The notes below the pieces were generated by a model. The model did not search any database. It had not been told where the DNA came from and saw only the letters and a list, made by a program, of their open reading frames with translations. 44,910 bases of DNA. Origin: Candidatus Acidiferrales bacterium. GTDB taxonomy: Bacteria; Acidobacteriota; Terriglobia; Acidiferrales; UBA7541. The DNA lies in the NCBI GenBank assembly GCA_030037315.1, contig JASHRM010000223.1, positions 1 through 44,910 of the forward strand. Direction: 5' to 3'. Below are positions 2,854-27,757 of this stretch, piece after piece. How positions within the stretch are numbered: the first letter of the stretch is position 1; every line of letters starts with the position of its first letter. Both the position numbers and the translations under genes were made by a program.

Positions 2854-2960
2854 CGAACGAGACAAGCAGCCATGCGCGCGCGAAACTGCGGCGAAGCGCG
2901 AAGTAGCGACCTTGAGCAGCTGGATTCGCATCTGTTAGGCTGTTCGCGCCGAAGGTGGCA

Positions 2961-3839
2961 ATGACATTTCTTCGACGGACTCCCGTAATCGCGGCGCTCC
3001 TCGCGGGGTTCACTTGCAGTGTGACCGCTTTCCCGGGCGGGCAGCAGCAATTCTTCGGCGGCAACAACAACTACGACTACTACGACCCCGCAAGCAACCA
3101 ACCCGCGGAATTTTACTGGTCACGTTTGCGGTACACCGCGCGAACCGATAGCTATGGCGGAGGTGGTTATGGCTACGGCGGATACGGATACGGGTATGGC
3201 TTCGCGAGCTGGTCGCGCGATTACCCGAAAGCCGACCGGCAATTCCTGATGGCGATGAAGCGGCTGACGCGAATCGAAGGCCGCCCAACGGAGCAAGTGG
3301 TCGATCTCGATCACGATGACGATGTGCGCCCCGTCGCGAACGAGTTTCCGGGCAGAAGCATCGATAACTATCCGTGGGTGTACGCCGTCCAAGTAGCGAA
3401 CTGGACGTTTACGGATCAGGAGGCGAAGCGACTTCACGACTATTTGCTGAAGGGCGGCTTTTTGATGGTGGACGATTTTCACGGAACTGCGGATTGGGAC
3501 CGGTTCATGAACGGCATGCGCATGGTTTTTCCGGACCGCCCGATCGAAGATTTGCAGGACAACGACGAAATTTTTCACGTCCTCTACGACATCGGCCAGC
3601 GGTTCCAAATTCCGGGCGAGCAGTATGTGGTGACCGGCAGGACGTACGAGAAGGACGGCTACGTCCCCAAGTGGCGCGCGATTCGCGACGACAAGGGGCG
3701 CATCATGGTCGCCATTTGCCACAACATGCACCTGGGCGATGCGTGGGAATGGGCGGACATGCCGGAGTATCCGGAAAAATTTGCGTCGATGGCGTTTCGA
3801 ATTGGGCTCGATTACATCATGTATGGGATGACGCACTAG
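2961..3839 (+). CDS. DUF4159 domain protein, exported, Gly/Tyr-rich N-terminus
   Basis: 292 residues starting at ATG 2961, with AAGG a few bases upstream; the track's GTG at 2955 adds only two residues. A signal peptide (MTFLRRTPVIAALLAGFTCSVTAF) is followed by an Asn/Tyr region and a Gly/Tyr-rich stretch (YGGGGYGYGGYGYGYG) around residues 65-80, then a DUF4159 domain (FLMAMKRLTRIEG, VDLDHDD, YPWVYAV, LHDYLLKGGFLMVDDFHG, FPDRPIEDLQDNDEIFHVLY). DUF4159 has a class I glutamine-amidotransferase-like fold and commonly sits beside MoxR/DUF58/BatA genes in Acidobacteria and Planctomycetes; its biochemical role is not known to me. It heads a same-strand run of nine genes but is separated from the next by about 165 bp containing a strong hairpin, so expression may be partly uncoupled. 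Confidence 0.85.
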   Translation: MTFLRRTPVIAALLAGFTCSVTAFPGGQQQFFGGNNNYDYYDPASNQPAEFYWSRLRYTARTDSYGGGGYGYGGYGYGYGFASWSRDYPKADRQFLMAMKRLTRIEGRPTEQVVDLDHDDDVRPVANEFPGRSIDNYPWVYAVQVANWTFTDQEAKRLHDYLLKGGFLMVDDFHGTADWDRFMNGMRMVFPDRPIEDLQDNDEIFHVLYDIGQRFQIPGEQYVVTGRTYEKDGYVPKWRAIRDDKGRIMVAICHNMHLGDAWEWADMPEYPEKFASMAFRIGLDYIMYGMTH

Positions 3840-3868
3840 GATGGAGCAATTGCAGATTTGAAACGAAT

Positions 3869-3931
3869 GTGGCGGCCTTGCCCGATCGCCCTTCGCGCGA
3901 CCGGGACACCCGGTGCGTTCAAGGCCGCCGC
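3869..3931. repeat. Large nested hairpin, possibly REP-related
   Basis: GTGGCGGCCTTG (3869-3880) pairs with CAAGGCCGCCGC (3920-3931), giving 12 bp with one G-T pair. The loop contains a second hairpin, ACCGGG-ACA-CCCGGT (3900-3914). The minus strand begins GTAA beside the stem, one base off the GTAG of the REP-like elements at 1159-1223. It lies between the DUF4159 gene and the VWA gene and could attenuate or process the transcript. Confidence 0.5.
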
Positions 3932-4005
3932 TTACGAAAACCAGTTCGTCACACGAATCCTGAAACCGAGCCCTGAAAGGCCGCGACCAGGGCTCGCGGG
4001 TGCAA

Positions 4006-6276
4006 ATGATGTTTGAATTGCTCTTCAAGTATCCGGTCGCGGTATTTTCCAAGGGCGAATTCGTCCTGCTAGGCGGCTGGCCGAAATGGGTGCTGGCGCT
4101 GCTGATTGTTGCAGCGGCAGCGGCGCTTGCGTGGCGGATTCGGCTGAAGCTCTCGCGTTCCGGCGGCAACCTGCGAAACTGGCAGGCTGCCACCATCTGG
4201 CTTTTCGAAACTTTCCTTGCTGCGTTGATTCTGGTGCTGCTGTGGCAGCCCGCCATGGTGGTGGCGCAGCTTCGTCCGGAACAAAACATCATTGCGGTAC
4301 TGGTGGACGATTCGCAGAGCATGGCGATCGCGGATGGCGGTGCAAACACAACTCGCGAAGAGCAAGCCAAGAAAGTGCTCGCGGACGGCACCTTGTCCGC
4401 ATTGCAGCAAAAATTCCAGACGCGAATTTACCGGCTCGACAGCCATTTGACGCGCGTGGGCAGCCTGCAACAAATTCCGCCTCCAACGATGCCCGCGACC
4501 CATATCGGCGACGGCTTGAAGCAGCTTGTCGCGGAGACGAGCGATTTGCCCGTTGGCGCGGTCGTGCTGCTCAGCGACGGGTCCGACAATACCGGCGGCA
4601 TCGATCTGGATACGATTTCCGCGCTGCGGAATCGGCACATTCCGGTTCATACGGTGGGATTTGGCGCTGAGAGCGTGTCGCCCGACGTGGAAGTGGATGA
4701 TGCGGTGGTGCCGCAGCGCGCGCTGGCCGATTCGCGTTTATCGGCGATGGTCACGCTGCATCAGCATGGATATTCCGGGCGAAAAGGCACGCTCAGCGTG
4801 CGAGACGGCGACAAACTGCTCACATCGCGCGAGATTACATTTGCGGCGGATGGAAAAATACAGCGCGAGAATCTGCTGTTCAGCGCAGGAACGGCAGGAG
4901 CGAAGTCGCTCGAATTTTCCGTGGCTCCGCTACCCGATGAAAAAAACAAACTCAACAACAGCGTGACACGGCTGATCAGCGTGGATTCGGACAAGCGGCG
5001 AATTCTCTACGTGGAAGGGGAGCCGCGCTGGGAATACAAGTTCATTCGTCGCGCAGAGGATGATGACCGCATCGTGCAAGTCGTTTCGATGCTGCGGACC
5101 ACGGAGAACAAAATCTACCGCCAGGGAATCAACGATCCAAACGAACTGGCCGACGGTTTTCCGACTCGGGCGGAAGATCTTTTCGGCTACGCGGGAATCA
5201 TCATCGGATCGGTGGAAGCGGGATATTTCACGCCGGCGCAGCAGGATTTGTTGCGCGAGTTTGTGGACCGGCGCGGAGGGGGCTTGCTGTTTTTAGGCGG
5301 GCGGTCATCGCTGGCTGATGGCGTTTGGGGCGGATCAAGCGACGTGGATTTGTTTCCGGTAGTGCTGCCGAATCAGAAAAATACGTTCCATCGCGCGCCT
5401 GCGACGGCGCAGCTGACTCCCGCGGGTGCGGATAATCTGATTTGCCGGCTGGTGGACGATCCGCAAGCCAACGTGGATCGTTGGCGCAAACTTCCCTACT
5501 TGATGGATTACCAAGACGCCGGAACGCCGAAACCGGGTGCGGCTGTGCTGGCCGAAATGATGGCGGGCGGACGAAAGCTTCCGCTGTTGATTACGCAGAA
5601 TTACGGGCGCGGGCGCACGGCCATTTTGGCTACGTCCGGCACGTGGCGATGGAAAATGAGCCAGCCGCTCGGCGACACGACGCACGACATGTTCTGGCAG
5701 CAGTTCCTCCGCTGGCTGGTGGCTGATACGCCGGGGCACGTGGTGGCGTCCGTGCCGAACCAGGTGCTGTTCGATGAAGGGCACATTCGCTTGTCGGCTG
5801 ACGTGCGCGGGAAGGATTACACGCCTGCGGCAGATGCGACGGTTCAGGCGCACGTGATGGGGCCGGGCGGGATTTCTGCGATGGTTGACATGACACCGGT
5901 TCCGGACGCGCCGGGAACTTTTCAAGCAGATTGGACGGCGGAGAAACCGGGATCGTATGTGGCGGAAGTGACGGCTCAGAAAGGCAGCGATGAAATCGGC
6001 CATGATGTGGTGAGTTTTGAGCGGATGGACGGAGTGGCGGAGAATTTTCACGTCGAGCAAAATCGCGATTTGCTGGAACGGCTGGCATCGCAAACTGGCG
6101 GGAAATATTGGCAGCCGAATGAAACTTCGAAGCTGGCCGACGACATTCCGTACTCGGAGGCGGGCATCACGGTGCGCGAGACGAAGGAATTGTGGAATCT
6201 ACCGCTTATTTTCCTGGTGATTTTGGCCGTGCGCGGGAGCGAATGGCTGTTGCGACGCAGATGGGGCGTGGTATGA
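4006..6276 (+). CDS. Membrane protein with VWA domain and glutamine-amidotransferase-like region
   Basis: About 756 residues from ATG 4006 (ATG 4009 also possible; the track's GTG 4000 adds two codons). Two N-terminal membrane helices (WVLALLIVAAAAALAW and TFLAALILVLLWQPAMVV) precede a von Willebrand factor A domain with a MIDAS-type start (VLVDDSQSM, around residue 100) and later LLSDGSDNTGG. The middle part (RILYVEGEPRWEYKFIRRA, LREFVDRRGGGLLFLGGRSS, LFPVVLP) resembles the amidotransferase-like domain found in Bat-type proteins, without an obvious catalytic triad. A final helix (LPLIFLVILAVRGSEWLL) anchors the C-terminus, placing most of the protein in the periplasm. Its stop overlaps the next start by 4 bp (ATGA). 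It is probably a metal-binding protein-protein interaction partner of the MoxR ATPase encoded downstream. Confidence 0.85.
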   Translation: MMFELLFKYPVAVFSKGEFVLLGGWPKWVLALLIVAAAAALAWRIRLKLSRSGGNLRNWQAATIWLFETFLAALILVLLWQPAMVVAQLRPEQNIIAVLVDDSQSMAIADGGANTTREEQAKKVLADGTLSALQQKFQTRIYRLDSHLTRVGSLQQIPPPTMPATHIGDGLKQLVAETSDLPVGAVVLLSDGSDNTGGIDLDTISALRNRHIPVHTVGFGAESVSPDVEVDDAVVPQRALADSRLSAMVTLHQHGYSGRKGTLSVRDGDKLLTSREITFAADGKIQRENLLFSAGTAGAKSLEFSVAPLPDEKNKLNNSVTRLISVDSDKRRILYVEGEPRWEYKFIRRAEDDDRIVQVVSMLRTTENKIYRQGINDPNELADGFPTRAEDLFGYAGIIIGSVEAGYFTPAQQDLLREFVDRRGGGLLFLGGRSSLADGVWGGSSDVDLFPVVLPNQKNTFHRAPATAQLTPAGADNLICRLVDDPQANVDRWRKLPYLMDYQDAGTPKPGAAVLAEMMAGGRKLPLLITQNYGRGRTAILATSGTWRWKMSQPLGDTTHDMFWQQFLRWLVADTPGHVVASVPNQVLFDEGHIRLSADVRGKDYTPAADATVQAHVMGPGGISAMVDMTPVPDAPGTFQADWTAEKPGSYVAEVTAQKGSDEIGHDVVSFERMDGVAENFHVEQNRDLLERLASQTGGKYWQPNETSKLADDIPYSEAGITVRETKELWNLPLIFLVILAVRGSEWLLRRRWGVV

Positions 6277-7232
6277 GACTCGCTGCGATGCGTTCGGCGC
6301 TTGCCGCATGCGGAATCGCGTGCGCGCTGCTTCTCGCGGCGCTGCCGGTGCGAGCGGGGACATATTTTGTGACGGTCGCGGGACTGGGCGGCGAGCCGGA
6401 TTACGATCAGCGGTTCACGGCGATGGCAAACGACCTGGATCACATTTTGAAGACCTCGGGCGGCGATGTGCACGTGACGACGCTGATGGGAGCGGCGGCG
6501 ACGAAGGCGGGTCTCGAGAATGCGCTTGGTCAGGTCGCGAAAGAGGCGAAGCCGCAGGATGATTTCGTACTGGTGTTGATCGGGCACGGCTCGTACGACG
6601 GAGTGGAATACAAGTTCAATCTCGTGGGCCCGGATATTTCGGGCGGCGATTTGGCAGCGCTGTGCGACCGCATTCCCTCCAAGCGGCAACTGATTGTGAA
6701 TACGACGAGCGCGAGCGGCGGGTCGATAGCGGCACTCGATAAGCCCGGGCGCGCGGTGATCGCGGCGACGAAAACCGGCACAGAGAAAAATGCGACAGTC
6801 TTTGCCCGCTACTGGATCGAAGCGCTGCGCGATCCCACGACCGACACGAACAAGAACGAGACGATCAGCGCGATGGAAGCTTTTCAGTACGCGACGACGA
6901 AAACGGCGGCTTTTTATGATTCTCAGAAGCGTTTAGCGACGGAGCACGCGGTTTTCGAAGACACCGGAAAAAATGACGCAGTGAGAGTTGCGTCCACGGA
7001 TACGGGCGAAGGACTTTTTCTTTCGAACTTTGCGCTGATTCGCATTGGCGCGGCGCAAAAGGCGTTTGCCGACCCGGCAAAGCGCGATCTGCTGGCGAAA
7101 AAAGAAGAGCTCGAGCAAACAATCGATCAGCTGAAGTATCAGAAGGCGGCGATGGCTCCCGACGATTACAAAGAGCAATTGACGGCCGCGTTGCTGGAAC
7201 TGGCGCACGTGCAAGAGGAACTCGACAAATGA
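6273..7232 (+). CDS. Exported caspase-fold (C13/C14-like) protein with apparent loss of catalytic Cys
   Basis: The start is ATG 6273, overlapping the previous stop by 4 bp; the track's start at 6192 adds 27 residues encoded by the upstream gene's DNA. 319 residues: a signal peptide (MRLAAMRSALAACGIACALLLAALPVRA), then a likely caspase/legumain-like fold. DDFVLVLIGHGSYDG supplies the expected His (about H105), and RQLIVNTTSASGGSI lies where an active enzyme carries a ...A-C-x-S-G... motif. Here the Cys is replaced, best aligned to Ser146, 41 residues after the His, about the spacing I recall for legumain. A charged helix (about 270-319) ends the protein. It may be a non-proteolytic pseudo-enzyme or a Ser variant. 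The next gene starts inside its stop (ATGA), implying translational coupling. The fold assignment comes from motif spacing and is moderate. Confidence 0.65.
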   Translation: MRLAAMRSALAACGIACALLLAALPVRAGTYFVTVAGLGGEPDYDQRFTAMANDLDHILKTSGGDVHVTTLMGAAATKAGLENALGQVAKEAKPQDDFVLVLIGHGSYDGVEYKFNLVGPDISGGDLAALCDRIPSKRQLIVNTTSASGGSIAALDKPGRAVIAATKTGTEKNATVFARYWIEALRDPTTDTNKNETISAMEAFQYATTKTAAFYDSQKRLATEHAVFEDTGKNDAVRVASTDTGEGLFLSNFALIRIGAAQKAFADPAKRDLLAKKEELEQTIDQLKYQKAAMAPDDYKEQLTAALLELAHVQEELDK

Positions 7233-9457
7233 CTCGGGTCCCGCTTGCGGCTGGGATTTGCGGCGTGATGCTGGTGGGCGCAGGCGGAGTTCGCGCCGCC
7301 ACGCCGCGCGATTGCGAGACGCTCGCAAAACACGGGCACAACGCGGAAGCGCGCAATTGCTACGAATCGCTGACGCAACAACGCGATCCTTATTTGCGCG
7401 CCGAGGGATTTTGGGGACTCAAGGACTATCAGAGCGCGAACAACGAGTTTCGCGCGGCCGTCGCGCAGGCGGACGGCAATGCGATGTACCGCGTGCGATG
7501 GGGACGGCTGCTGCACGAGCGGTTCAACAACGTGGATGCGGAGGGGCTCTTCAAAGAAGCGCTGCAGCGGGATCCAAAGAATGCGGAGGCGTATCTGGGG
7601 CTCGCGCTCGTGAGCGCTGATGGTTTTGACGATTCAGCGATCACTTGGACGATGCAAGCGCTAAAGCTTGATCCGAAATTGGTTGAGGCGCACGAACTGA
7701 TGGCAAATCTGGCGCTCGAAGATTCGGATACCGAGACGGCGGTGAGAGAGGCGAATGCGGCGCTGGCGATTTCGCCCGATGCGCTCGATGCGATGGCGAT
7801 TCGCGCGGCGGTGGAGATTCTCGCGGATCGGTCGCCGGATGAGTGGCTCGGGAAAATTCGGGCGGTGAACCCAACATATGGCGAGGGCTATGCGATTGTG
7901 GCGCATCACCTGATACTAAATCGGCGATACGAGGATGGCGTGGCGTATTACCGCAAGGCGATTGCCGCCGATCCGGAACTTTGGTCCGCGCGAGCGGAGC
8001 TAGGCATCAATCTAATGCGACTCGGGCAAGAGGATGAACCGCGAAAGCAGCTCGAGATGTGTTACGAGAATGGCTATCGCAACGCGGAGACGACCAACAC
8101 GCTGCGTCTGCTGGATAGCTACAAAAATTTCGTCACGCTGCGGGACGGTCCTGTGACTTTGAAGCTGGAAAAGAACGAAGCGGACCTGCTGTATCCGTAT
8201 TTCGATGAAGAGGCGCAGCGCGCGATCGCGACGTACACGAAAAAATACAAGATGACGCTGCCGGGGCCGGTGCAAATCGAGGTTTACGCGAACCACGAGG
8301 ATTTTGCTGTGCGGACGATGGGGATGCCGGGGCTCGGCGCGCTGGGAGTGACGTTCGGCGAAGTGCTGGCGATGGACAGCCCTTCCGGGCGCAAGCCAGG
8401 CGATTTTAATTGGGCCAGCACGCTGTGGCACGAGATGAGCCACGTGTTCATTCTGACGGCGACGAATCATCGCGTGCCGCGCTGGTTTACCGAGGGCCTC
8501 GCGGTGCACGAGGAAACGCAAGCGTCGCCGGAATGGGGCGACCGGGTCACTCCGGAAATTCTGGTGGCGATTCGCGACAAGAAATTGCTGCCGGTGGCGG
8601 AACTCGACCGGGGATTTGTGCGTCCTGAATACGAGGCGCAGGTGATTGTCTCGTATTATCAGGCGGGCAAAATCTGCGATTACATTCAGGAGCGCTGGGG
8701 CGCGGACAAGCTGCTCGACATGGTGCATTCGTTCGCGAAGATCCAGACCACGCCGGATGTGATTCAGCAGGATCTGGGCATGCGTGCGGAGGAATTCGAT
8801 AAAGAATTTTTGGCGTGGCTCGATAAGGATGTGGCGAAGGAGGCCGCGAGTTTCGATGAGTGGCGCAATGGGCTGAAGGACGTTGCGATGAAGGCACGCG
8901 ACCACGATTACGACGGCGTCTTAAAGGAAGGAGAGCACGTGCGCGCGCTCTATCCGGACTATATATATGACGCGAACGTGTACGAATTCCTTGCGGAAGC
9001 GGACCTGGCGAAGAACGACAAAACAGCCGCTACAACGGTGCTGACCGAGTACGAAAAAATGGGAGGGCACAGTCCCGCGACGCTGAAGGAGCTGGCGTCC
9101 CTCGAATCGGACGCGGGCGATAAGAAGGCCGCCGCAGCGACGTTGAATCGCATCAATTACATTTACCCGGAAGATGAGGATTTGCACCGACGCTTGGGCG
9201 ATTTGTGGCTGGGGCAGGAAAACTATCCGGGTGCGATTCGTGAGTACAAGGCGGTGCTGGCGATGGGGCCGCTCGATAAGGCCTCGGCCGAATTCAATCT
9301 AGCGCAGGCGTATTTCGATGCAGGGCAGAAGGACAAGGCCGAGGAAGATGTGCTGGCAGCTTTGGAAGCGGCGCCGACCTATCGTCCGGCGCAAAAATTA
9401 TTGATGCAACTCGAGGACTCCAAGAAAGGAACCAACGCAGATGGCCACACCCAGTGA
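7229..9457 (+). CDS. TPR protein with embedded HExxH zinc-metallopeptidase domain
   Basis: 742 residues from ATG 7229, overlapping the previous stop by 4 bp. The N-terminus (VPLAAGICGVMLVGAGGVRA) is a probable signal peptide. TPR-type helices follow over about residues 30-290 (AEAYLGLALVSADG, ALKLDPKLVEAHELMANLAL). The centre holds a gluzincin-type motif, WHEMSHVF (H401, E402, H405), with PRWFTEGLAVHEE supplying the third ligand (about E422), the arrangement of the MA-like peptidase family. A second TPR block lies at about 560-735 (DLWLGQENYPGAIREYKAVL). The likely role is an extracytoplasmic zinc peptidase that binds protein partners through its TPR arms. All canonical metal-binding and catalytic residues are present, in contrast to the preceding degenerate caspase-like gene. 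Its last 17 bp overlap the start of the MoxR gene. Confidence 0.8.
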   Translation: MTRVPLAAGICGVMLVGAGGVRAATPRDCETLAKHGHNAEARNCYESLTQQRDPYLRAEGFWGLKDYQSANNEFRAAVAQADGNAMYRVRWGRLLHERFNNVDAEGLFKEALQRDPKNAEAYLGLALVSADGFDDSAITWTMQALKLDPKLVEAHELMANLALEDSDTETAVREANAALAISPDALDAMAIRAAVEILADRSPDEWLGKIRAVNPTYGEGYAIVAHHLILNRRYEDGVAYYRKAIAADPELWSARAELGINLMRLGQEDEPRKQLEMCYENGYRNAETTNTLRLLDSYKNFVTLRDGPVTLKLEKNEADLLYPYFDEEAQRAIATYTKKYKMTLPGPVQIEVYANHEDFAVRTMGMPGLGALGVTFGEVLAMDSPSGRKPGDFNWASTLWHEMSHVFILTATNHRVPRWFTEGLAVHEETQASPEWGDRVTPEILVAIRDKKLLPVAELDRGFVRPEYEAQVIVSYYQAGKICDYIQERWGADKLLDMVHSFAKIQTTPDVIQQDLGMRAEEFDKEFLAWLDKDVAKEAASFDEWRNGLKDVAMKARDHDYDGVLKEGEHVRALYPDYIYDANVYEFLAEADLAKNDKTAATTVLTEYEKMGGHSPATLKELASLESDAGDKKAAAATLNRINYIYPEDEDLHRRLGDLWLGQENYPGAIREYKAVLAMGPLDKASAEFNLAQAYFDAGQKDKAEEDVLAALEAAPTYRPAQKLLMQLEDSKKGTNADGHTQ

Positions 9458-10469
9458 AGTGAAGCCGGAGTCAGCCGAGCTGCAAAGGCGCGTGGAGCGC
9501 TTTCAAGCGGTGCGCGACGGGATTTTGGCGCAAGTGCGCAACGTGATTGTCGGGCAGGACGAAGTGCTCGATCAGATTTTGATCGGGCTCTTTGTTGGCG
9601 GGCACTGCCTGATCACCGGTTTGCCCGGCACGGCGAAAACGCTGATGGTGCGCACGATCTCGCAGACGCTAGGGCTTGTCTTCCGGCGCATCCAGTTCAC
9701 GCCGGACCTGATGCCCTCGGACATCACCGGCACGGACATCATCGAAGAAGATCCGACTACGGGCGGGCGCCGATGGACCTTCGTGCAGGGGCCGATTTTC
9801 GGCAACGTGCTGCTGGCGGACGAAATCAACCGAACGCCGCCCAAGACGCAGTCGGCGCTCCTGGAAGCGATGCAGGAGCTTTCGTGCACCGTGCGCGGCA
9901 ATCACTACAACTTGCCGCAACCGTTTTTTGTGCTGGCGACGCAGAATCCGATCGAGCTCGAAGGCACATACCCGCTCCCGGAGGCGCAGCTCGACCGATT
10001 TTTGTTCAATACGGTTTTGGATTACCTGAACGCGGCGGACGAAGTGAAAGTGGTGGACCTGACCACGACGACGCACATCCCCGCGGTGCAGGCGATCACA
10101 AATGCGCAGGAAATTCTGAGTTTTCAGGAACTGGTGCGAATGGTGCCGATTGCCGAATCGTTGGCGAAATATGTGGTGGAGATTGTGCGGGCGACGCGTC
10201 CGAAAAACGTTGAAGCGCCGGACATCGTGAAAAAATATGTGAATTACGGCGCGAGCGTCCGTGCGGCGCAGTTCATCGTGCTGGCGGCGAAGGCGCGCGC
10301 GCTTTCGCGGCGGCGCTATCACGTGGCCTACGAGGATATCGCGGCGCTTGCGATCCCGGTGTTGCGGCACCGCGTGCTGCTGAATTTCCACGCGGAGTCG
10401 GATCGCGTCGACTCGGACGAGATTTTGCGGCAGCTCCTCGAGAAAATGCCTCCTCCGAAAGGGGCTTAA
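9441..10469 (+). CDS. MoxR-family AAA+ ATPase
   Basis: 342 residues, a typical MoxR length. Walker A is GLPGTAKT (about 60-67), Walker B is VLLADEIN (D127, E128), and the sensor region is FFVLATQNPIELEGTYPLPEAQLDRF. The C-terminal lid includes VKKYVNYGASVRAAQFIVLAAKARAL. MoxR ATPases are cytoplasmic hexameric chaperones that activate or mature partner proteins, usually with VWA-domain proteins encoded next door. That context is met here: DUF58 and BatA-like genes follow. The start at ATG 9441 lies inside the preceding gene, and the stop TAA overlaps the next start by one base (TAATG), so both junctions suggest coupled translation. Confidence 0.95.
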   Translation: MATPSEVKPESAELQRRVERFQAVRDGILAQVRNVIVGQDEVLDQILIGLFVGGHCLITGLPGTAKTLMVRTISQTLGLVFRRIQFTPDLMPSDITGTDIIEEDPTTGGRRWTFVQGPIFGNVLLADEINRTPPKTQSALLEAMQELSCTVRGNHYNLPQPFFVLATQNPIELEGTYPLPEAQLDRFLFNTVLDYLNAADEVKVVDLTTTTHIPAVQAITNAQEILSFQELVRMVPIAESLAKYVVEIVRATRPKNVEAPDIVKKYVNYGASVRAAQFIVLAAKARALSRRRYHVAYEDIAALAIPVLRHRVLLNFHAESDRVDSDEILRQLLEKMPPPKGA

Positions 10470-11356
10470 TGCAGCGGTTCCTCAATCCATCGGTGCTGGC
10501 GGAAATTTCAAGCCTCGACTTGATCGCGAAGATCGTGGTCGATGGGTTCGTTGCGGGATTGCACCGCTCGCCCGATTTCGGATTCAGCCAGGAATTTGCA
10601 GAATATCGCGCGTATACGCCGGGCGACGATTTGCGGCACGTGGACTGGAACGTCTTCGCACGCACCGAGCGGGCGTATTTGAAAAGGTATCGCGGCGAGA
10701 CGAACAGCCTGCTGACGGTGCTGCTCGACGCAAGCAATTCGATGAATTACACGTCGCACAAGATTACCAAGATGGATTACGCGCGGTTTGCGGCGGCGTC
10801 GCTTTTCTATCTTGCGATTCACAATCAGCGCGACGCCGCAGGGCTGATCGTTTTCGACGACGAGGTGCGCAATTACATCCGACCGTCGACGCGGCAGGGA
10901 CAAATCAACAGGCTGCTGCATGGCCTCGATCTGGCGGAGCCACGAGCGCGGACAGATTTTGCCAAGCCGCTGCACCACTTTCAGGAATTTCTGCGGCGGC
11001 GCGGAATCGTCCTGATGATCTCCGATTTTTACGAAACGCCGGAGCGCATCATTCGCACGATCGAGCCGTTGCGGTTTCACGGCAACGAAATTGTGCTGTT
11101 TCACGTGCTCGATCCCAGGGAAATCAAGCCAGACCTGGATGGACCGGCGATTCTGGTCGATCTCGAAACGAACGATCATCTGGAAGTGACGCCTGAATAC
11201 GCGCGCGACGAGTATCCGCAAAAGATTCAGGGGCACATTGCGGCGTTGCGCGAGGCAGCACAGGGCGCGGGCATGGACTATTTTCTGCTGCAAACCGATC
11301 AGCCGCTCGACGCGGCGTTGCGTGAATATCTGACGATTCGCCAGGGGAGAAACTAG
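10469..11356 (+). CDS. DUF58 domain protein
   Basis: 295 residues starting at ATG 10469, sharing one base with the MoxR stop. The DUF58 signature FAEYRAYTPGDDLRHVDWNV is near residues 45-64, followed by ARTERAYLKRYRGE and a VWA-like segment (LLTVLLDASNSMNY) with a MIDAS-type DASNS. There is no membrane helix. DUF58 proteins are regular partners of MoxR ATPases in aerotolerance-type (Bat) operons and probably link the cytoplasmic ATPase to the membrane VWA proteins. The next gene follows with no intervening base. Confidence 0.93.
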   Translation: MQRFLNPSVLAEISSLDLIAKIVVDGFVAGLHRSPDFGFSQEFAEYRAYTPGDDLRHVDWNVFARTERAYLKRYRGETNSLLTVLLDASNSMNYTSHKITKMDYARFAAASLFYLAIHNQRDAAGLIVFDDEVRNYIRPSTRQGQINRLLHGLDLAEPRARTDFAKPLHHFQEFLRRRGIVLMISDFYETPERIIRTIEPLRFHGNEIVLFHVLDPREIKPDLDGPAILVDLETNDHLEVTPEYARDEYPQKIQGHIAALREAAQGAGMDYFLLQTDQPLDAALREYLTIRQGRN

Positions 11357-13375
11357 ATGGGCTTTCTTTCTCCCTGGTTCTTGGCCGGAGCGGCGGCTGT
11401 GGGGCTGCCGCTTTATCTGCACTTGCTGCGCCGCCACACGACTACGCCGCATCCATTCAGCTCGCTGATGTTTTTCGAGCACCGTACGCAAAGCTCGATC
11501 CGGCACCGCAAGCTGCGTTATTTGTTACTGCTCTCGCTGCGATTGGCGCTGCTGATTTTGCTGGCGCTCGCGTTTGCGAATCCTTACCTCAAGAGGACGG
11601 CGGTGAGCGCGTCGGGCGACAAACTGATGCTGATCGTAGTCGACAATTCGTTCAGCATGCGCGCCGGAACGCGGCTGGCCGACGCGAAAAAACAAGCCGA
11701 GAATTTGCTGAGTTCGCGGGCGCCTTCGAGGCGCGCGCAGGTTGCCGAACTAGGGTCGCAACTGCACGTGCTGACGCAGCCGGTGCAGGATCCTGCGTCG
11801 CTTCGGTCGGCGGTGGAGAGCATTCAGGCCGGCGACGCGCGCGGCAGCTTCGGCGAACTGGCTCGCGCGGTCGGGTCGATGGAAGACAGCGCGCACGTGC
11901 CGATCGAAGTGCATCTATTCAGTGATATGCAGCGGTCGGATATGCCCGCAAGCTTCGCGGAGATGGCGCTGCCGCCGAATGTGTCGCTGGTGCTGCATGC
12001 GGTGGGAAACAAAGCTGAACCGAACTGGGCGGTTGAGAGCGTGAACGCTCCGAGCCGGGTGTGGGATCCGAAGAAGGCGCGTGTGACAGCCGTGATTGCC
12101 GGGTACCAGACGCCGGCGGCGACACGAACTGCTTCGCTGGTCGTGAACGGAAAGACGATTGATTCGAAAAAAGTGAATGTGCCGGCAAATGGAAGGGCGA
12201 CGGTGGAATTCCAGTCGCTCGACGTTCCTTACGGACTGAGCCGATGCGAGATCCAGATCGATTCGGGAGACGCCCTCGCCGCTGACGATCGTTATTTATT
12301 CGCGGTGGAGCGTTCGGATCCGCAGCATGTGTTGTTCGTGCATGAAGCACGCGATTCGCGCTCGCCGCTGTTTTTCGGTTCGGCGCTGGCGTCGTCCGCA
12401 GAGGCGTCTTTTGCGCTCGAAAGCGTGCCGGCGGAGCGCGTCGCAGGGCTCGATCCCTCGAAATACGCTTTCGTTGTTTTGTCGGATGCGGCTTCGCTGC
12501 CGAGCCAATTCGAGAATGATTTGCAGCAGTATGTGCGGCGGGGCGCCGGCGTGCTCGTCGCGGTCGGGACTTCGTCGGCTCACCGGGCGAAAGTCCCGGT
12601 TTTCGGGGCGGACATCATGGGCGCGCATTCGTATCTGGAAGACAGCGCGCGGTACCTCACCGTGGGTGAAGCGGACTCTTCCTATCCCGCAATGGCGGGC
12701 GGCCAGGGCTGGGCGGGAGTGCGGTTTTATTACGCCGTTGCGGTCGATCCTGCGGATTCGCGTGTGGTCGCGAAACTGAGCGATCAGACTCCGCTGCTGC
12801 TCGAGAAAAAAATGGGCGAAGGACGCGTGCTGCTATTTGCTTCCGGACTCGACAACTTAACGAACGACTTCCCTTCCGGGCCGCTTTTCGTCCCGTTCGT
12901 GAAGCAGACAGCGCGGTACCTTTCGGGAACGCAAGACCGGAACGGATCGCGGATCGTGGATTCGTTCCTCGAATTGCGGACCGCGAAGGATCAGGCCGTG
13001 AGCGTTGAGGTGATTGATCCTGCCGGGAGGCGTCCGCTATCGATCGAGCAGGCGACAACAGCGCAATCGTTCCAGCTGACCGACGCGGGGTTTTACGAAG
13101 TGCGGCTCGCGAATGGGCGGCACGATCTGGTCGGCGTGAATGCGGACCGGCGCGAATCAAATCTCGAGCCCATTTCTGATGATGTGCTGGCGCTTTGGCG
13201 TGGCGCGGGAAATTCGAATGGGCAACAAGCCGCAGCAGCGGGCGCGGCAGCCGAAAGTGAGCCGGCGAAACCGAGCAGCATTTGGTGGTACGCTATGTTG
13301 CTGGTGCTCGTAGCGGCCCTTGCGGAGTCGTTCGTTGCCGCGCGGTACCTGACGGCTCAGGCGGAGGAATCATGA
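11357..13375 (+). CDS. BatA-like membrane protein with VWA domain
   Basis: 672 residues. The N-terminus is the BatA/aerotolerance-regulator module: MGFLSPWFLAGAAAVGLPLY, then HLLRRHTTTPHPFSSLMFF and a second helix (LLLLSLRLALLILLALAFANP). A VWA domain follows, LMLIVVDNSFSMRAGTRL with DNSFS as the MIDAS. The large middle region includes an amidotransferase-like section (LQQYVRRGAGVLVAVGTSS) and lacks extra helices, so it is probably periplasmic. A last helix (WWYAMLLVLVAALAESFVAARYL) anchors the C-terminus. It shares this architecture with the gene at 4006, so the operon encodes two related VWA membrane proteins. The start codon abuts the DUF58 stop, and the stop overlaps the next gene by 4 bp. 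Confidence 0.88.
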   Translation: MGFLSPWFLAGAAAVGLPLYLHLLRRHTTTPHPFSSLMFFEHRTQSSIRHRKLRYLLLLSLRLALLILLALAFANPYLKRTAVSASGDKLMLIVVDNSFSMRAGTRLADAKKQAENLLSSRAPSRRAQVAELGSQLHVLTQPVQDPASLRSAVESIQAGDARGSFGELARAVGSMEDSAHVPIEVHLFSDMQRSDMPASFAEMALPPNVSLVLHAVGNKAEPNWAVESVNAPSRVWDPKKARVTAVIAGYQTPAATRTASLVVNGKTIDSKKVNVPANGRATVEFQSLDVPYGLSRCEIQIDSGDALAADDRYLFAVERSDPQHVLFVHEARDSRSPLFFGSALASSAEASFALESVPAERVAGLDPSKYAFVVLSDAASLPSQFENDLQQYVRRGAGVLVAVGTSSAHRAKVPVFGADIMGAHSYLEDSARYLTVGEADSSYPAMAGGQGWAGVRFYYAVAVDPADSRVVAKLSDQTPLLLEKKMGEGRVLLFASGLDNLTNDFPSGPLFVPFVKQTARYLSGTQDRNGSRIVDSFLELRTAKDQAVSVEVIDPAGRRPLSIEQATTAQSFQLTDAGFYEVRLANGRHDLVGVNADRRESNLEPISDDVLALWRGAGNSNGQQAAAAGAAAESEPAKPSSIWWYAMLLVLVAALAESFVAARYLTAQAEES

Positions 13376-16300
13376 CCGCTCGCGCACAGCTCGAAAACTA
13401 TATCGAGCAGGTCGAGCGGCGCCTGCGCGCCCGATCGATTTTGATCGGCGCGGCCATTCTAGCGTCCTCGGCGCTGATCACCACGGTTGTTCTCGTACTG
13501 ATCACCAACAAGCTGGCGTTTTCCACCGCGAGCCTGGCCGGAGCGCGAGCGGTGCTCTTCGTGGTGCTCGCCTGCGGAGCGGCGTTCGGCATTATTTTTC
13601 CCCTGCTGCGACTGAATCGCCGGCGGGCGGCGTGGGAAACGGAGCGATCCTTCCCGGAATTCCAGCAGCGATTGGTGACGGTGGCCGAGCGCGATCCCGC
13701 AAACCACGAACCCTTCGCGGAATTGCTGGCGGCGGACACTTTGGGCGTGGCGCGAAACGCGCAGCCGGCGGTCGTGGTCCCGAACAAACGACTGATGGGC
13801 TTGCTCGGGGTGGCACTGGGATCGCTCGCTGTTCTGATCTGGATGGTCCTGGCCGGTCCCGGATATTTGGGCTACGGAGCCGCGTTGATTTGGGCGGGCG
13901 ATACGGGCGCGGGTCCGCTTTACGACATTCGCGTGCTTCCCGGCGACGCGACGGTCCGCCGAAACGCAGATCTGCTGATTACCGCGAAGCTGCGCGGCAT
14001 GCAAGCGGACGCGGCGCGCATCTACGCGCGCTACGAGAGCGCATCGAAATGGGAAGAGCTGCCGATGCAGCCGCAGGCGGGCGCGTCGGGATTCCAATTT
14101 GTTTTCGCAGGATTGCCGGAGGGCGTCGAGTATTACGTGGAAGCGGGCGCACTGCATTCGCGCCATTTCACGATTCGCGTGACGGACCTGGCGGCGGTAA
14201 AGCAAGTCCGCGTGACGTATCACTTCCCTTCGTGGACCGGCATGCCGTCTTCCACAGAAGACCATGGCGGCGATTTGCACGCGATTGAAGGTACCGAGGC
14301 GAACCTCGAAATTACGACGGACAGGCCGCTGAATTCCGGCGTGCTGGTGCTCGATGACGGCACGCAGATCGATCTTTCTTCGCGGGCGGGCAACGTTTAC
14401 CAGGGCACGATCAAAATCGACAAGGACGGGACGTATCACGTTGCAGCGCTCGATGGCGGGCAGCCGGTGCGCATCTCCGAGGATTTTTTCATCGAATCGG
14501 ACAAGGCGAATCCCCCCGAAGTGGTGATCGCACGGCCCAGCGGCGATTATCGCGCGAGCCCGATTGAAGAAGTTACGGTGGCGGCAAAAGCGGACGACGC
14601 GTTTGGACTGAGCGCTTTTGATCTTCACTACTCCGTGAACGGAGGCCCGGAACAGAGCGTCAATTTGCTCAATCAAAAAGGCGCGAAACAGGCGGATGGG
14701 TCGACGGTGATTTCGCTGGAGAATTTCAAAGTCGTGCCGGGCGATATCGTCAGCATCTATGCGACCGCAAAAGACGCGCACGCCGAGTCGCGCACGGACA
14801 TGTTCTTCATTCAGGCCGAACCCTTCGAGCGCGAATATTCGCAGTCGCAGCAAATGGGCGGAGGTGGCGGCGGAGGAGGAGGCGGCAACGCGCCGGACGA
14901 AATCTCACAGCGCCAGAAGGAAATCATCGGCGCCACATGGAAAGATCTGGGGAATAAGAATCTGGCGGCGGAAAAATCCGCCGAGGATTCGAAGTTCCTT
15001 TCGGGCGTGCAATCGAAGCTGCGGGATCAGGCGCTTTCGCTCGCGGGCCGCCTGCAGAGCCGCGATTTGACGCAGCAGAACGAGGAATTCACGAGTTTTC
15101 AGAACGACATGAACGCAGCGGCCGCCGCGATGAACCCGGCGGCACAGAAGCTGCAAGGGCAGAAGTGGAAAGACGCGATTCCGGACGAAGAAAAGGCGCT
15201 GCAATACCTGCTGCGTGCGGAAGCGACGTTCCGTCAGATTCAAGTGGCGTTTGGCGCTGCAGGCGGAGGCGCCGGTGGCAGCGGCGGAAGCGCAGGTCGC
15301 GATCTGGCAAGCCTTTTCGATCTCGAGCTGGACACGCAGAAAAATCAGTATGAGACGGCGCAGACGGCACAGTCCGCCGGGCAGCGCGCGGAAGAAATCG
15401 ACGAGGCGCTTCGCAAACTCGACGAGCTGGCGCGACGGCAGGATGAGTTGGCGCAGAACAATACGCAAACTCCCGAGCAGCGCTGGCAGCAGGAAATGTT
15501 GCGGCGCGAAGCGGAGCAGTTGCAGCGGCAAATCGAGCAGCTTTCGCGAAACGGCCAAAGCCAAAGCGGGCAGAGCCAAAGCGGGCAGAGCCAGAGCGGG
15601 CAAAGCCAGGATGGGCAATCGGATTCCGGCTCCCAATCTTCAGGCAATCCTTCCGGCGGACAATCGCAGGGTCGCCCAAGCGCAAACGATCCGCGCATGC
15701 AGCAGGCCTTAAATCAGCTCCGCGAAGCGAATGACGCGATGCGCCGCGCGCAGTCTGGCGGGCAGAGCAAAGCGGATGCGCGGCGCGCCGCAGAGCAGCT
15801 CCGGGAAGCAATGAATGCGCTGGGCGGTGAAAAGCGCGATCAAAATGCAGGGCGCATGAGCGCGATGGCAGGCGAAGCGGACCGTCTGGCAAACGAGCAG
15901 CGCGACCAAACCGACCGCATTCACAAATTGGCAGGGGGACAGCCTTCGACGGACGCAAACGGCAATCCGGACGACCCTTCCAAACTGGCAGATGATCGCC
16001 AGCATTTGGCAGACGATTTGACGCAGCTCGAGAAGCAGATGCGCGACGCGGTGCGCGATCTTTCGTCCACCGATCGCGACGCTGCGTCGAAACTGCGCGA
16101 CAGCCTGCGCCAGCTCGATCAATCCGACCTTGATACGCGTATGCAACGCAGCTCGGATTATTTGCGGCGCGGCGTGAACCCGGATCGCAACGGCTCGGAA
16201 AACGAGATGGCGTCCGACTTGGACAAACTGGGCCAGCAGATCCGCGAAGCAGGACAGGCGATGGGCAAGGGCCAGCCGCAAAATCCGGAAGACGCGCTAA

Positions 16301-16962
16301 GTCAGGTGGAAAATTTGCGAAATCGGCTGGAAGCGATGAGCCGCGGCAACAACGGCGGTCAGCAATCCGGCAGAAATTCCGGCGCGAATTCGGGCAACAG
16401 CGGCCAAAATGCTCGGGGCAACAATTCCGGACAGAATGCGCAGGGTGGCAACTACAGCAATCAACCCGGCGGTCCGGGACGCGTGGGAGATTTCGTCAAT
16501 GGCGGAAATTACGGCTACCAGAATGGCGGACCCGTATACGGCGGAATGAATACGGGCGACAATCTGCCACTGCCGCGTCCGGTTGGACCGGGGCCGAATC
16601 CGGAAACTCCCGAGAAGCTATATCAGGATTATCAAACGGCTGTGTCGCAACTCGACCAGCTGCGAAAGAACGTGCAGGACGATCCCGAGACGCTGAAGGA
16701 GGTCGAGAATTTGATTTTACAGATGCAGCGGCTCGACCCGCGGCGCTTTCCGGGCAATCCAGCGATCATCGCGCAGTTGCACGGCCAGGTACTCAGCGAT
16801 GTGGACAAGCTCGAACTCGAATTGCGCAGCAAGCAGGAAGGCAAGCAAGCGGGCCAGGTGCGCGGGAATGAGTCGATGCCGGTCCCTGCGGGCTACGAGG
16901 ACGCAGTGGCCGATTATTTCCGCCGCTTGAGCAAAAACCAGAGCGAAAACGAATCGAGGTAA
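13372..16962 (+). CDS. Very large DUF4175-like membrane protein with Gln/Gly-rich coiled-coil region
   Basis: 1196 residues. The start is ATG 13372 in an ATGA overlap; the track's 13282 start adds 30 residues belonging to the upstream gene. Hydrophobic helices lie at about 22-46 (SILIGAAILASSALITTVVLVLI), 52-75 and 140-162. A beta-rich extracytoplasmic part follows (VRVTYHFPSWTGMPSSTEDHGGDLHAIEGT), typical of DUF4175 proteins in MoxR/Bat clusters. A poly-Gly run near 496-506 leads into a long Gln/Arg/Glu-rich, probably coiled-coil region with a 15-bp tandem repeat encoding GQSQS (15553-15621). A Gly/Asn-rich linker (about 1000-1060) precedes a helical end (YQDYQTAVSQLDQLRKNVQ; ...ADYFRRLSKNQ). 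The role is unknown; an envelope-spanning scaffold is plausible. Low-complexity composition explains the long antisense ORFs here. Confidence 0.85.
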   Translation: MTARAQLENYIEQVERRLRARSILIGAAILASSALITTVVLVLITNKLAFSTASLAGARAVLFVVLACGAAFGIIFPLLRLNRRRAAWETERSFPEFQQRLVTVAERDPANHEPFAELLAADTLGVARNAQPAVVVPNKRLMGLLGVALGSLAVLIWMVLAGPGYLGYGAALIWAGDTGAGPLYDIRVLPGDATVRRNADLLITAKLRGMQADAARIYARYESASKWEELPMQPQAGASGFQFVFAGLPEGVEYYVEAGALHSRHFTIRVTDLAAVKQVRVTYHFPSWTGMPSSTEDHGGDLHAIEGTEANLEITTDRPLNSGVLVLDDGTQIDLSSRAGNVYQGTIKIDKDGTYHVAALDGGQPVRISEDFFIESDKANPPEVVIARPSGDYRASPIEEVTVAAKADDAFGLSAFDLHYSVNGGPEQSVNLLNQKGAKQADGSTVISLENFKVVPGDIVSIYATAKDAHAESRTDMFFIQAEPFEREYSQSQQMGGGGGGGGGGNAPDEISQRQKEIIGATWKDLGNKNLAAEKSAEDSKFLSGVQSKLRDQALSLAGRLQSRDLTQQNEEFTSFQNDMNAAAAAMNPAAQKLQGQKWKDAIPDEEKALQYLLRAEATFRQIQVAFGAAGGGAGGSGGSAGRDLASLFDLELDTQKNQYETAQTAQSAGQRAEEIDEALRKLDELARRQDELAQNNTQTPEQRWQQEMLRREAEQLQRQIEQLSRNGQSQSGQSQSGQSQSGQSQDGQSDSGSQSSGNPSGGQSQGRPSANDPRMQQALNQLREANDAMRRAQSGGQSKADARRAAEQLREAMNALGGEKRDQNAGRMSAMAGEADRLANEQRDQTDRIHKLAGGQPSTDANGNPDDPSKLADDRQHLADDLTQLEKQMRDAVRDLSSTDRDAASKLRDSLRQLDQSDLDTRMQRSSDYLRRGVNPDRNGSENEMASDLDKLGQQIREAGQAMGKGQPQNPEDALSQVENLRNRLEAMSRGNNGGQQSGRNSGANSGNSGQNARGNNSGQNAQGGNYSNQPGGPGRVGDFVNGGNYGYQNGGPVYGGMNTGDNLPLPRPVGPGPNPETPEKLYQDYQTAVSQLDQLRKNVQDDPETLKEVENLILQMQRLDPRRFPGNPAIIAQLHGQVLSDVDKLELELRSKQEGKQAGQVRGNESMPVPAGYEDAVADYFRRLSKNQSENESR
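15553..15621 (+). repeat. 15-bp in-frame tandem repeat (GQSQS) in the DUF4175-like gene
   Basis: Four consecutive 15-bp units encode GQSQS, GQSQS, GQSQS, GQSQD, with a partial fifth (GQS). The units differ only at a few positions (CAA/CAG, GGC/GGG), which suggests recent expansion by slippage and possible length variation between strains. Confidence 0.85.
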
Positions 16963-16965
16963 TTC

Positions 16966-17370
16966 ATGGGAAGCGCCGAGAGCCAGACGGAAGCGTTCGT
17001 GCGGAATTTTTTCGCGACGCTGAGCACGGGCGATTTGTCGCGGCTGCGTCCGCTGCTGCATGAGGATGCAAGCTGGACCGTGAATGCGTCTGGAATCGAC
17101 GGAGCAGGGCCGAAAAAGGGCCACAAAGCGATCCTCGACGATTTCCTGGGGCCGATTCGCGGGATCTTCGAGCCGGGTGATCCGAAAGTGGTGATTCAAC
17201 GGGTGATCGCGCAAGGCAATGTTGCAGTGGCGGAAGCCCGCGGATTGGGCCGGCTAAAGAATGGCAAGGAATACAACAACCGCTATGCTTTTGTTATCGA
17301 GGTGCGAGACGGCAAGGTTGCGGCGCTCACGGAGTATTTGGATACGGTGCATGTGAAGTCGCTGGGGTAG
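16966..17370 (+). CDS. NTF2-like/SnoaL-like domain protein
   Basis: 134 residues, three bases after the stop of the DUF4175-like gene, with GAGG upstream of ATG 16966. The pattern matches a cone-shaped NTF2-like fold: an N-terminal helix (TEAFVRNFFATLSTGDLSRLRPLLHEDASWTV), a middle strand region (NVAVAEARGLGRLKNGKEYNNRYAFVIEVRDGKV) and the closing LTEYLDTVHV. Such proteins are small ligand-binding or isomerase/hydrolase-like domains, often of unknown substrate; a related family is annotated as ketosteroid isomerase-like. There is no signal peptide, so it is cytoplasmic. Being last in the operon, it may be an accessory or merely co-transcribed. Confidence 0.85.
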   Translation: MGSAESQTEAFVRNFFATLSTGDLSRLRPLLHEDASWTVNASGIDGAGPKKGHKAILDDFLGPIRGIFEPGDPKVVIQRVIAQGNVAVAEARGLGRLKNGKEYNNRYAFVIEVRDGKVAALTEYLDTVHVKSLG

Positions 17371-17393
17371 AACGCCGAACCGCGCGGGCGGTG

Positions 17394-17472
17394 AAGAGAG
17401 ATTCTTCGACCGCGCGTCCCGATTCGCCTGCGGCGAAGGTGAGAACGTGCGGACGCTCCGCTCAGAATGACA
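17394..17472 (+). repeat. Dispersed intergenic repeat, copy C
   Basis: It begins 'AGAGAGATTCTTCGAC' and ends 'CGCTCAGAATGACATT', with a GC-rich variable middle. It lies in the gap between two convergent genes (NTF2-like + and the 68-aa gene -), where a bidirectional terminator would be expected. Confidence 0.75.
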
Positions 17473-17494
17473 TTCCTACTGTTGTTTGCTTCGA

Positions 17495-17701
17495 CTATTT
17501 TCGGAATAAAAACGTCAGCAGGAAAAAGAACAGGCGAAAATTCAGGAGCTTGAGGGCGTTGCGCGCTTCCCGAGGCGTCAGCTTCGCCGTCATCGGCATT
17601 GAGCCGAACACTTTGCCCTTCATCACGAGCTTGTTTCCCTCGCGCTCGAACGCGGTGACCTGCATCAGCTCGTTATTATCCGGACCGAAGAGTTTCATCA
17701 T
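17495..17701 (-). CDS. Small conserved-looking protein coupled to the FAD oxidoreductase
   Basis: 68 residues: MMKLFGPDNNELMQVTAFERE...GKVFGSMPMTAKLTPREARNALKLLNFRLFFFLLTFLFRK. The start ATG at 17701 overlaps the stop of the upstream FAD-dependent oxidoreductase by 4 bp (a second ATG follows at 17698). The protein has a short beta-like N-terminal half, a helix (TPREARNALKLL) and a strongly hydrophobic, Phe-rich C-terminal tail that may touch or insert into the membrane. I recall similar small proteins beside phytoene-dehydrogenase-like genes, but know no function. The tight coupling suggests it acts with the oxidoreductase, perhaps as a membrane tether. Confidence 0.65.
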   Translation of the reverse strand: MMKLFGPDNNELMQVTAFEREGNKLVMKGKVFGSMPMTAKLTPREARNALKLLNFRLFFFLLTFLFRK

Positions 17702-27646: not shown

Positions 27647-27744
27647 GGATGCCTCTTGAAATTATGGTAGCAAAATGCGCTTCGCCGAATGCATCATTCG
27701 CATCGAATTGCGAGGCAACGCTACAACCGTGGCGAACGAATACT

Positions 27745-27750
27745 TATAAT
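27745..27750 (+). promoter_or_regulatory. Perfect -10 box (TATAAT) just upstream of the GH144-like start
   Basis: TATAAT lies seven bases before ATG 27758, so transcription would begin at or next to the start codon and yield a leaderless mRNA. The -35 candidate (TACAAC, 27722-27727, 17-bp spacer) is weak. No Shine-Dalgarno sequence precedes ATG 27758, which fits leaderless translation. This holds only if 27758 is the true start. Confidence 0.4.
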
Positions 27751-27757
27751 TATTACG

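Follow-up and report, generated by a model that had tools for sequence, protein, structure and literature searches.

In a 44,910-nt stretch from a Candidatus Acidiferrales bacterium (assembly GCA_030037315.1, contig JASHRM010000223.1, positions 1 to 44,910; hereafter the window), two putatively exported proteins related to proteases are encoded within a MoxR/VWA gene cluster. The genes concerned were lettered A to I in their order from 2961 to 17370, all on the + strand. Protein C is predicted to adopt a legumain-type fold and D is a TPR protein with a metallopeptidase domain, and in the host lineage the linkage of both with the MoxR set is real and deep. On balance, we favour the view that the eight genes A to H encode one inner-membrane MoxR/VWA chaperone-type machine, a dedicated arm of which handles substrates in the periplasm.

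MoxR/VWA operons are widespread, and most are without a definite established function and without known clients. The present lineage, whose core always comes with a dead legumain homolog and a zinc protease that is apparently intact, provides a concrete handle on these clients, as a catalytic mutant of D could trap them and C could be tested as a receptor. C would furthermore offer a clear example from bacteria of a pseudoprotease with a legumain fold that two phyla have retained. In the open-access literature, the scope of our search, no paper was found on DUF4159, on MoxR together with legumain, or on MoxR together with von Willebrand and Acidobacteri (subscription papers lie outside this scope); as far as searched, the eight-gene combination with two exported protease-like proteins, which is carried by many Acidobacteriota of soil and by a relative in the Gemmatimonadota, is apparently undescribed.

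Linkage of C and D with the MoxR genes

Separate searches with C, D, H and G were run on a total of 61 genomes, covering the window's own genome and its genus, family, order and class. C, D and H were found in exactly the same 22 genomes. Strong matches to D (E-values from 0 to 2.9e-45) were confined to these 22, the other D matches being generic TPR, and the BatA-type protein G occurred in the same genomes plus one partial, distant match of 31% (G038). Within the window's own genus, the module is present in 9 of 20 genomes with presence and absence alternating, showing that the pattern is not one of clade against clade; some of the absences are attributable to incomplete metagenome-assembled genomes (MAGs).

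In 20-kb loci of relatives, the order A-B-C-D-E-F-G-H was observed wherever the contig was long enough, with A as the first gene in most complete loci and B directly upstream of C in Terriglobia loci. Named Acidobacteriota loci retrieved independently keep this order or a contiguous part of it in 78 of 80 cases, among which a few are without A and two have an extra DUF4159 gene nearby. The two deviant loci (L072 and L074) are without D-E or D-E-F. They were rejected as counter-examples because each is an incomplete second copy whose genome holds the full set as well: a D homolog lies elsewhere in the full order, from A to F before the contig end in one genome and from A to H in the other. The closest named relatives are Acidobacteriota MAGs, many of them bearing the label Terriglobia or Candidatus Acidiferrales. 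The module genes are also present in cultured species of Terriglobus, Edaphobacter and Granulicella, and the full set is found in the culturable Terriglobus roseus DSM 18391, Edaphobacter aggregans DSM 19364 and Terriglobus albidus DSM 26559. A few matches labelled as Rhodanobacteraceae, Gammaproteobacteria and Acidimicrobiia MAGs were taken as submitters' labels and not as evidence of other phyla.

The gene overlaps are also kept in homologous loci, for B-C in 85 of 101, for C-D in 69 of 97 (68 of them of 1-4 bp) and for G-H in 53 of 70, and the divergence of neighbouring proteins is congruent (r = 0.93 for B-C and r = 0.93 for C-D, with no species-tree correction). Chance linkage or a recent local insertion of C and D is rejected by their joint presence and absence with the set and by the conserved synteny. 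A previous sequence-only reading of the window had assigned C and D to the MoxR/DUF58/BatA set and had proposed a unit of nine genes. The assignment is borne out by the joint presence in 22 of the 61 genomes and by the conserved order; a lack of conserved co-occurrence had been set beforehand as the refuting outcome, and the C/D linkage withstood this test. The unit had to be shortened, since no credible homolog of the SnoaL-like protein I follows H in any of the 15 loci that extend far enough; hence, the conserved unit comprises eight genes.

In other Acidobacteriota, the module is found rearranged. A profile of C detected full-length homologs in about 84 of the 297 Acidobacteriota species sampled when strong matches were counted, and a tally at E<=0.001, which includes fragmentary matches, gave 104 of the 297. 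Twenty further loci, mostly outside the class, were read and some were extended. Apart from D-less second copies and two D-C pairs, described below, their genes follow either the order B-C-D-A-E-F-G-H, sometimes with a further A in front, or the order D-A-E-F-G-H-B-C, a cyclic permutation of the former, and B lies immediately 5′ of C in 18 of the 20. Clusters read as E-F-G-H-B-C were considered as D-less and this was rejected, as each of the six that were extended upstream proved to have D-A at its 5′ end, and a seventh already showed D-A. The order D-A-E-F-G-H-B-C is thus complete in 7 of 7 clusters with a readable 5′ end.

A search of 72,556 plasmid records returned a single C homolog, on the 1.1-Mb megaplasmid of Gemmatirosa kalamazoonensis (Gemmatimonadota; NZ_CP007129.1, 733172-761870), where the complete eight-family set is arranged as B-C-D-A-E-F-G-H. 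The presence of the complete set on a megaplasmid makes an inter-phylum transfer possible. Because the eight families stay together in two phyla despite rearrangement, the evidence for a joint function is stronger than conserved order alone would provide. In addition, the same genome as the window carries a paralogous MoxR-DUF58-DUF4350-DUF4129 module with a GPDPase-type membrane protein and without C or D (L137, contig 269:8000-22000, 6653-12146, -), as well as two further DUF4159 genes without the rest of the module. Such MoxR and DUF4159 paralogs without C or D indicate that C and D are specific to the eight-gene module.

Properties of proteins C and D

The caspase fold previously proposed for C holds. 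The AlphaFold2 (AF2) model is confident (mean predicted local distance difference test score, pLDDT, of 90.9) and its Foldseek search against the PDB placed legumain first (E=3.9e-08, TM score about 0.45-0.57), with legumain, caspase and metacaspase at E-values of about 1e-7 and further matches to MALT1, the bacterial protein GSU0716, metacaspases and a subunit of the glycosylphosphatidylinositol (GPI) transamidase. In addition, 11 of 21 homologs match Peptidase_C13 (PF01650; best 7.9e-6). According to the model, C has a caspase-haemoglobinase fold of the legumain type (Peptidase C13, clan CD). C resembles legumain in this fold and in the GHG histidine, and differs from it by the absence of the catalytic Cys in every homolog and by the presence of an EF-hand-like loop and a C-terminal helical hairpin.

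The position of the nucleophile is occupied in the 102 homologs by Ser (93), Glu (5), Pro (3) or Asn (1) and never by Cys; in seven homologs a Cys is found one residue past this position and is not the nucleophile itself. The Cys is also missing in Gemmatirosa and in the further loci. A role for C as a Cys protease was rejected on these counts, which make C unlikely to be a peptidase at all and leave D as the only possible proteolytic part. From its sequence, C is probably a non-catalytic, non-peptidase homolog of the legumain fold. An alternative is that C is a serine hydrolase on this fold, in which Ser146 or the invariant Ser148 would act with His105. His105 is indeed invariant, Ser dominates at the Cys position (93/102) and, with R220, E224, H225 and D230 near-invariant in C, the last three are further conserved polar residues that could form a site. 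However, Glu, Pro or Asn replaces Ser146 in 9 of the 102 homologs, which otherwise look intact, and Ser148 aligns with the SG of the metacaspase CHSG motif, two residues past the nucleophile, so that a serine hydrolase is quite improbable. C is perhaps a calcium-responsive binding subunit, calcium binding being suggested by the EF-hand-like loop alone.

In D, the Peptidase_MA_2 domain (PF13485; E=1.7e-12, 48.1 bits against a cut-off of 32.4) is flanked by TPRs. The AF2 model is confident (pLDDT 92.3) and its fold search returned TPR superhelices only, because the TPRs dominate the score. The signature HExxH...PRW(F/L)(T/S)EG is intact in all distant D homologs inspected as well as in Gemmatirosa. 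Since the HExxH...E zinc site is complete across both phyla, D is probably the active protease and, judging from these motifs, probably a zinc peptidase of the gluzincin type (Peptidase MA superfamily).

The main rival explanation concerns this site. The eight proteins might form a pure chaperone for assembly or cofactor insertion, similar to NorQ/NorD or RavA/ViaA, in which C is a spacer, the zinc site of D is structural or vestigial and no proteolysis takes place. Characterised MoxR/VWA pairs work in complex assembly (PMC7159879), the nucleophile of C is clearly gone and D is mostly a TPR scaffold whose top fold matches are TPR scaffolds. On the other hand, D retains its catalytic Glu and all three of its zinc ligands in two phyla, which is unexpected for a vestigial site, and we regard such a scaffold-only role as unlikely, albeit deserving serious attention. 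The proteolytic or substrate-recognition arm envisaged in the sequence-only reading remains the most economical explanation; a peptidase activity is unlikely for C, which is without the Cys.

Known systems and the proposed machine

The core of the cluster is a MoxR/VWA chaperone-type module similar to the Bat and RL3499-RL3502 operons. RL3499-RL3502 (cmdA-cmdD) of Rhizobium leguminosarum and its alphaproteobacterial kin combines MoxR, DUF58, a BatA-like VWA protein, DUF4159 and a B-like VWA/GATase1 protein in one operon, as observed here, with the difference that it contains four genes and that DUF4159 is fused to the BatA-like part instead of forming a separate gene A. The R. leguminosarum region found with B encodes MoxR, DUF58, DUF4159 with a BatA-like part and a B-like protein, and from this gene content we infer that it is of the RL3499-RL3502 type; its MoxR and B homologs match profiles built from the module, no match to the C or H profile was found in the region, and a short TPR match takes the place of D. 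Mutation of RL3499-RL3502 reportedly leads to envelope and morphology defects (cited in PMC5700661). The Bat (aerotolerance) operon of Bacteroides, Leptospira, Borrelia and Riemerella likewise contains MoxR, DUF58, a BatA-type VWA protein and a TPR protein (PMC11834572; PMC5700661) and is associated with stress phenotypes (PMC11834572; PMC5700661), including altered resistance to heat and oxidative stress in Riemerella moxR/batA mutants (PMC11834572). By contrast, no DUF4159, GATase1-like VWA, DUF4175 or protease-fold protein is named for the Bat operon, and the TPR protein of the window has a metallopeptidase domain. When BatB, BatC, BatD and BatE were sought beside BatA, only BatA scored over its cut-off, BatC giving a weak generic TPR match (20.3 bits versus 175). 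Plasmid pPL62-3 of Planctomyces sp. SH-PL62 shares the core in the order E-F-G-B followed by two H-like fragments, and no C or D homolog was found in its cluster region. As the Rhizobium and Planctomyces clusters have the core without C and D, the core is of a known kind and C and D are the addition.

Inactive caspase domains associated with MoxR-vWA proteins are already known from intracellular conflict systems (PMC7159879). These ternary systems (eLife 2020, PMC7159879) unite MoxR and VWA proteins with caspase-like domains that are often inactive, as is the case for C, and it could be argued that the eight genes form a regulated conflict or defence system of this class with caspase-like domains as effectors or regulators. 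Supporting this idea, MoxR-vWA systems combine caspase and metallopeptidase domains, about 70% of their effector-position caspases are inactive (PMC7159879) and the module is patchily distributed within one genus. However, the conflict systems are described as located inside the cell, where effectors that vary are joined by a VMAP, iSTAND, FtsH or beta-propeller component, whereas the module has no variable effector, all of its parts are constant over two phyla, and A, C and D are predicted to be exported, in contrast to the systems of PMC7159879, for which no secretion signs are reported. Among the eight proteins, no Pfam or PADLOC match to a VMAP, iSTAND, FtsH or beta-propeller third component was found, and the only PADLOC model match was a weak one to an ATPase (E=1.2e-4). 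E itself passes the bpMoxR cut-off (38.3 versus 27 bits), with no propeller-VWA partner present. A defence system was thus rejected as a candidate for want of PADLOC support, and we consider a conflict function highly improbable.

The predicted topology places the parts on both sides of the inner membrane. With a simple hydropathy test used in place of SignalP, signal-like N-termini were found for C in 93 of 102 homologs, for D in 84 of 98 and for A in 65 of 72, versus 1 of 88 for MoxR and 4 of 81 for DUF58. G has the two-anchor N-terminus of BatA, and the translations of B and H show N-terminal hydrophobic segments, B having a C-terminal one as well. From these features, we infer that E and F are cytosolic, that B, G and H are membrane proteins and that A, C and D are exported. 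The VWA domain of a Borrelia BatA-like protein is periplasmic (PMC5700661).

In the machine that we propose, E would form a MoxR ring in the cytosol and, together with the soluble VWA protein F as its partner, would have H and the two membrane VWA proteins, B and G, as its targets, with ATP-driven remodelling by E and F presumed by analogy with MoxR/VWA chaperones. In the periplasm, B would work with both C and D. Of these, C most likely binds a peptide or protein without cutting it, perhaps in a calcium-dependent manner. D, a TPR scaffold with an apparently intact gluzincin zinc-protease centre, would cut or mature the client; C would thus recognise and D would cut, together forming the periplasmic arm. 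The output is most likely the maintenance or assembly of the envelope or of envelope protein complexes, by analogy with the related Rhizobium operon. This mechanism is at its weakest where it passes from the cytosol to the periplasm. A bolder and rather unlikely version is a MoxR-driven trans-envelope protease, in which C as a calcium-responsive pseudo-legumain picks substrates and hands them to the TPR-metalloprotease D, ATP hydrolysis being relayed via the membrane VWA proteins. If this were true, the ATP-less periplasm would gain an energised quality-control or maturation protease.

Several points weigh against a single machine with a periplasmic arm. Second copies without D, arranged as B-C-A-E-F-G-H or B-C-E-F-G-H, exist in genomes that also have D-A-E-F-G-H-B-C (with an unreadable 5′ end in G282), which implies that the core is apparently able to run without its own D. 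In two genomes (L175 and L190), D and C stand together while the stretch read contains none of the other module genes, so that C and D may have a role outside the machine; this suggests that they form a functional unit of their own. Furthermore, the signal peptides were judged by hydropathy alone, and the envelope role is taken over from distant relatives. The stand-alone pairs also speak for C and D being passengers of the operon that serve an unrelated periplasmic process. Yet the strict joint presence and absence, a linkage that outlasts rearrangement of the whole cluster, the overlaps and the congruent divergence all argue for their belonging to the machine, and a passenger status is very hard to credit.

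Five genomes carry two paralogous modules (L178/L179, L180/L181, L182/L183, L185/L186 and L187/L188), with one of each pair being without D; a division of labour between the copies is possible.

Gene layout in the window

The draft genome measures 3.68 Mb, with about 83% completeness. On re-reading of the frames, the coordinates and junctions previously given for the nine open reading frames were correct, and the Pfam identities (DUF4159, GATase1_like, TPR with Peptidase_MA_2, MoxR, DUF58, BatA and SnoaL_2) were confirmed. Gene A lies 166 bp ahead of B. The B-C, C-D and G-H junctions are ATGA overlaps, D and E overlap by 17 bp and E and F by 1 bp (TAATG), F and G are separated by 0 bp and H and I by a 3-bp gap, a layout consistent with a single transcript. 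No forward sigma-70-like promoter was found in 2600-17900 by a scan that is insensitive here. A multicopper oxidase gene (1324-2931, -) is the divergent neighbour of the operon.

The Walker A (GLPGTAKT), Walker B (DEINR) and Arg finger (LDRF) motifs of E are conserved in 79 homologs. The metal-ion-dependent adhesion site (MIDAS) DxSxS is intact in all three VWA proteins, B, F and G; in B it reads LVDDSQSM and is conserved in the homologs compared. In the Pfam scan, B matches GATase1_like and has a weak VWA signal. The window copies of C and H have no Pfam match at the default threshold. The window copy of H gives a weak match to DUF4175 (PF13779) that stays under the cut-off (E=0.1), and 12 of 14 homologs match (best 9.5e-12).

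Table 1. Genes A to I and selected sites of proteins C and D, with positions in the window.
Feature	Position	Strand	Evidence
A, exported DUF4159 protein, 292 aa	2961..3839	+	Pfam PF13709, E=3.9e-38; signal-like N-terminus
B, membrane VWA + GATase1-like protein, 756 aa	4006..6276	+	PF07090, E=7.6e-07
C, exported protein of 319 aa, predicted legumain/caspase fold, catalytic Cys absent, helical hairpin at the C-terminus	6273..7232	+	AF2 model; Foldseek; Peptidase_C13 in 11/21 homologs
C His105 of GHG, catalytic-His equivalent	6585..6587	+	Invariant in 102/102; aligns with metacaspase-4 GHG
C Ser146, catalytic-Cys position of legumain/metacaspase	6708..6710	+	Profile alignment to Cys of metacaspase-4 DSCHSGG
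C EF-hand-like loop, residues 191-202, DTNKNETISAME	6843..6878	+	All 102 homologs fit the loop pattern; AF2 model has a short strand followed by a helix
D, exported protein of 742 aa, gluzincin metallopeptidase domain in the centre between TPRs	7229..9457	+	Peptidase_MA_2 and TPRs
D zinc-site motif HEMSH, residues 401-405	8429..8443	+	H401, E402 and H405 present in all of 92 homologs
D third zinc ligand Glu422 (PRWFTEG)	8492..8494	+	90/92 homologs; remaining two X and gap
E, MoxR AAA+ ATPase, 342 aa	9441..10469	+	PF07726 (AAA_3), E=1.1e-59
F, soluble DUF58/VWA protein, 295 aa	10469..11356	+	PF01882, E=2.6e-42; MIDAS LLDASNSM
G, BatA-type membrane VWA protein, 672 aa	11357..13375	+	PF07584, E=9.4e-15; TIGR02226; MIDAS VVDNSFSM
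H, DUF4175-like membrane protein of 1196 aa, including a long helical region rich in Gln and Ser	13372..16962	+	Homologs match PF13779
I, SnoaL-like protein, outside the conserved unit	16966..17370	+	PF12680 (SnoaL_2), E=1.4e-16

Elsewhere in the window, GH94 and glycoamylase domains are combined in a protein of 2930 aa (34748-43540, +) whose layout resembles that of cyclic beta-glucan synthases. Near it are genes for another glycoamylase protein (27689-29140) and for a GH39 protein (29148-30734, -).

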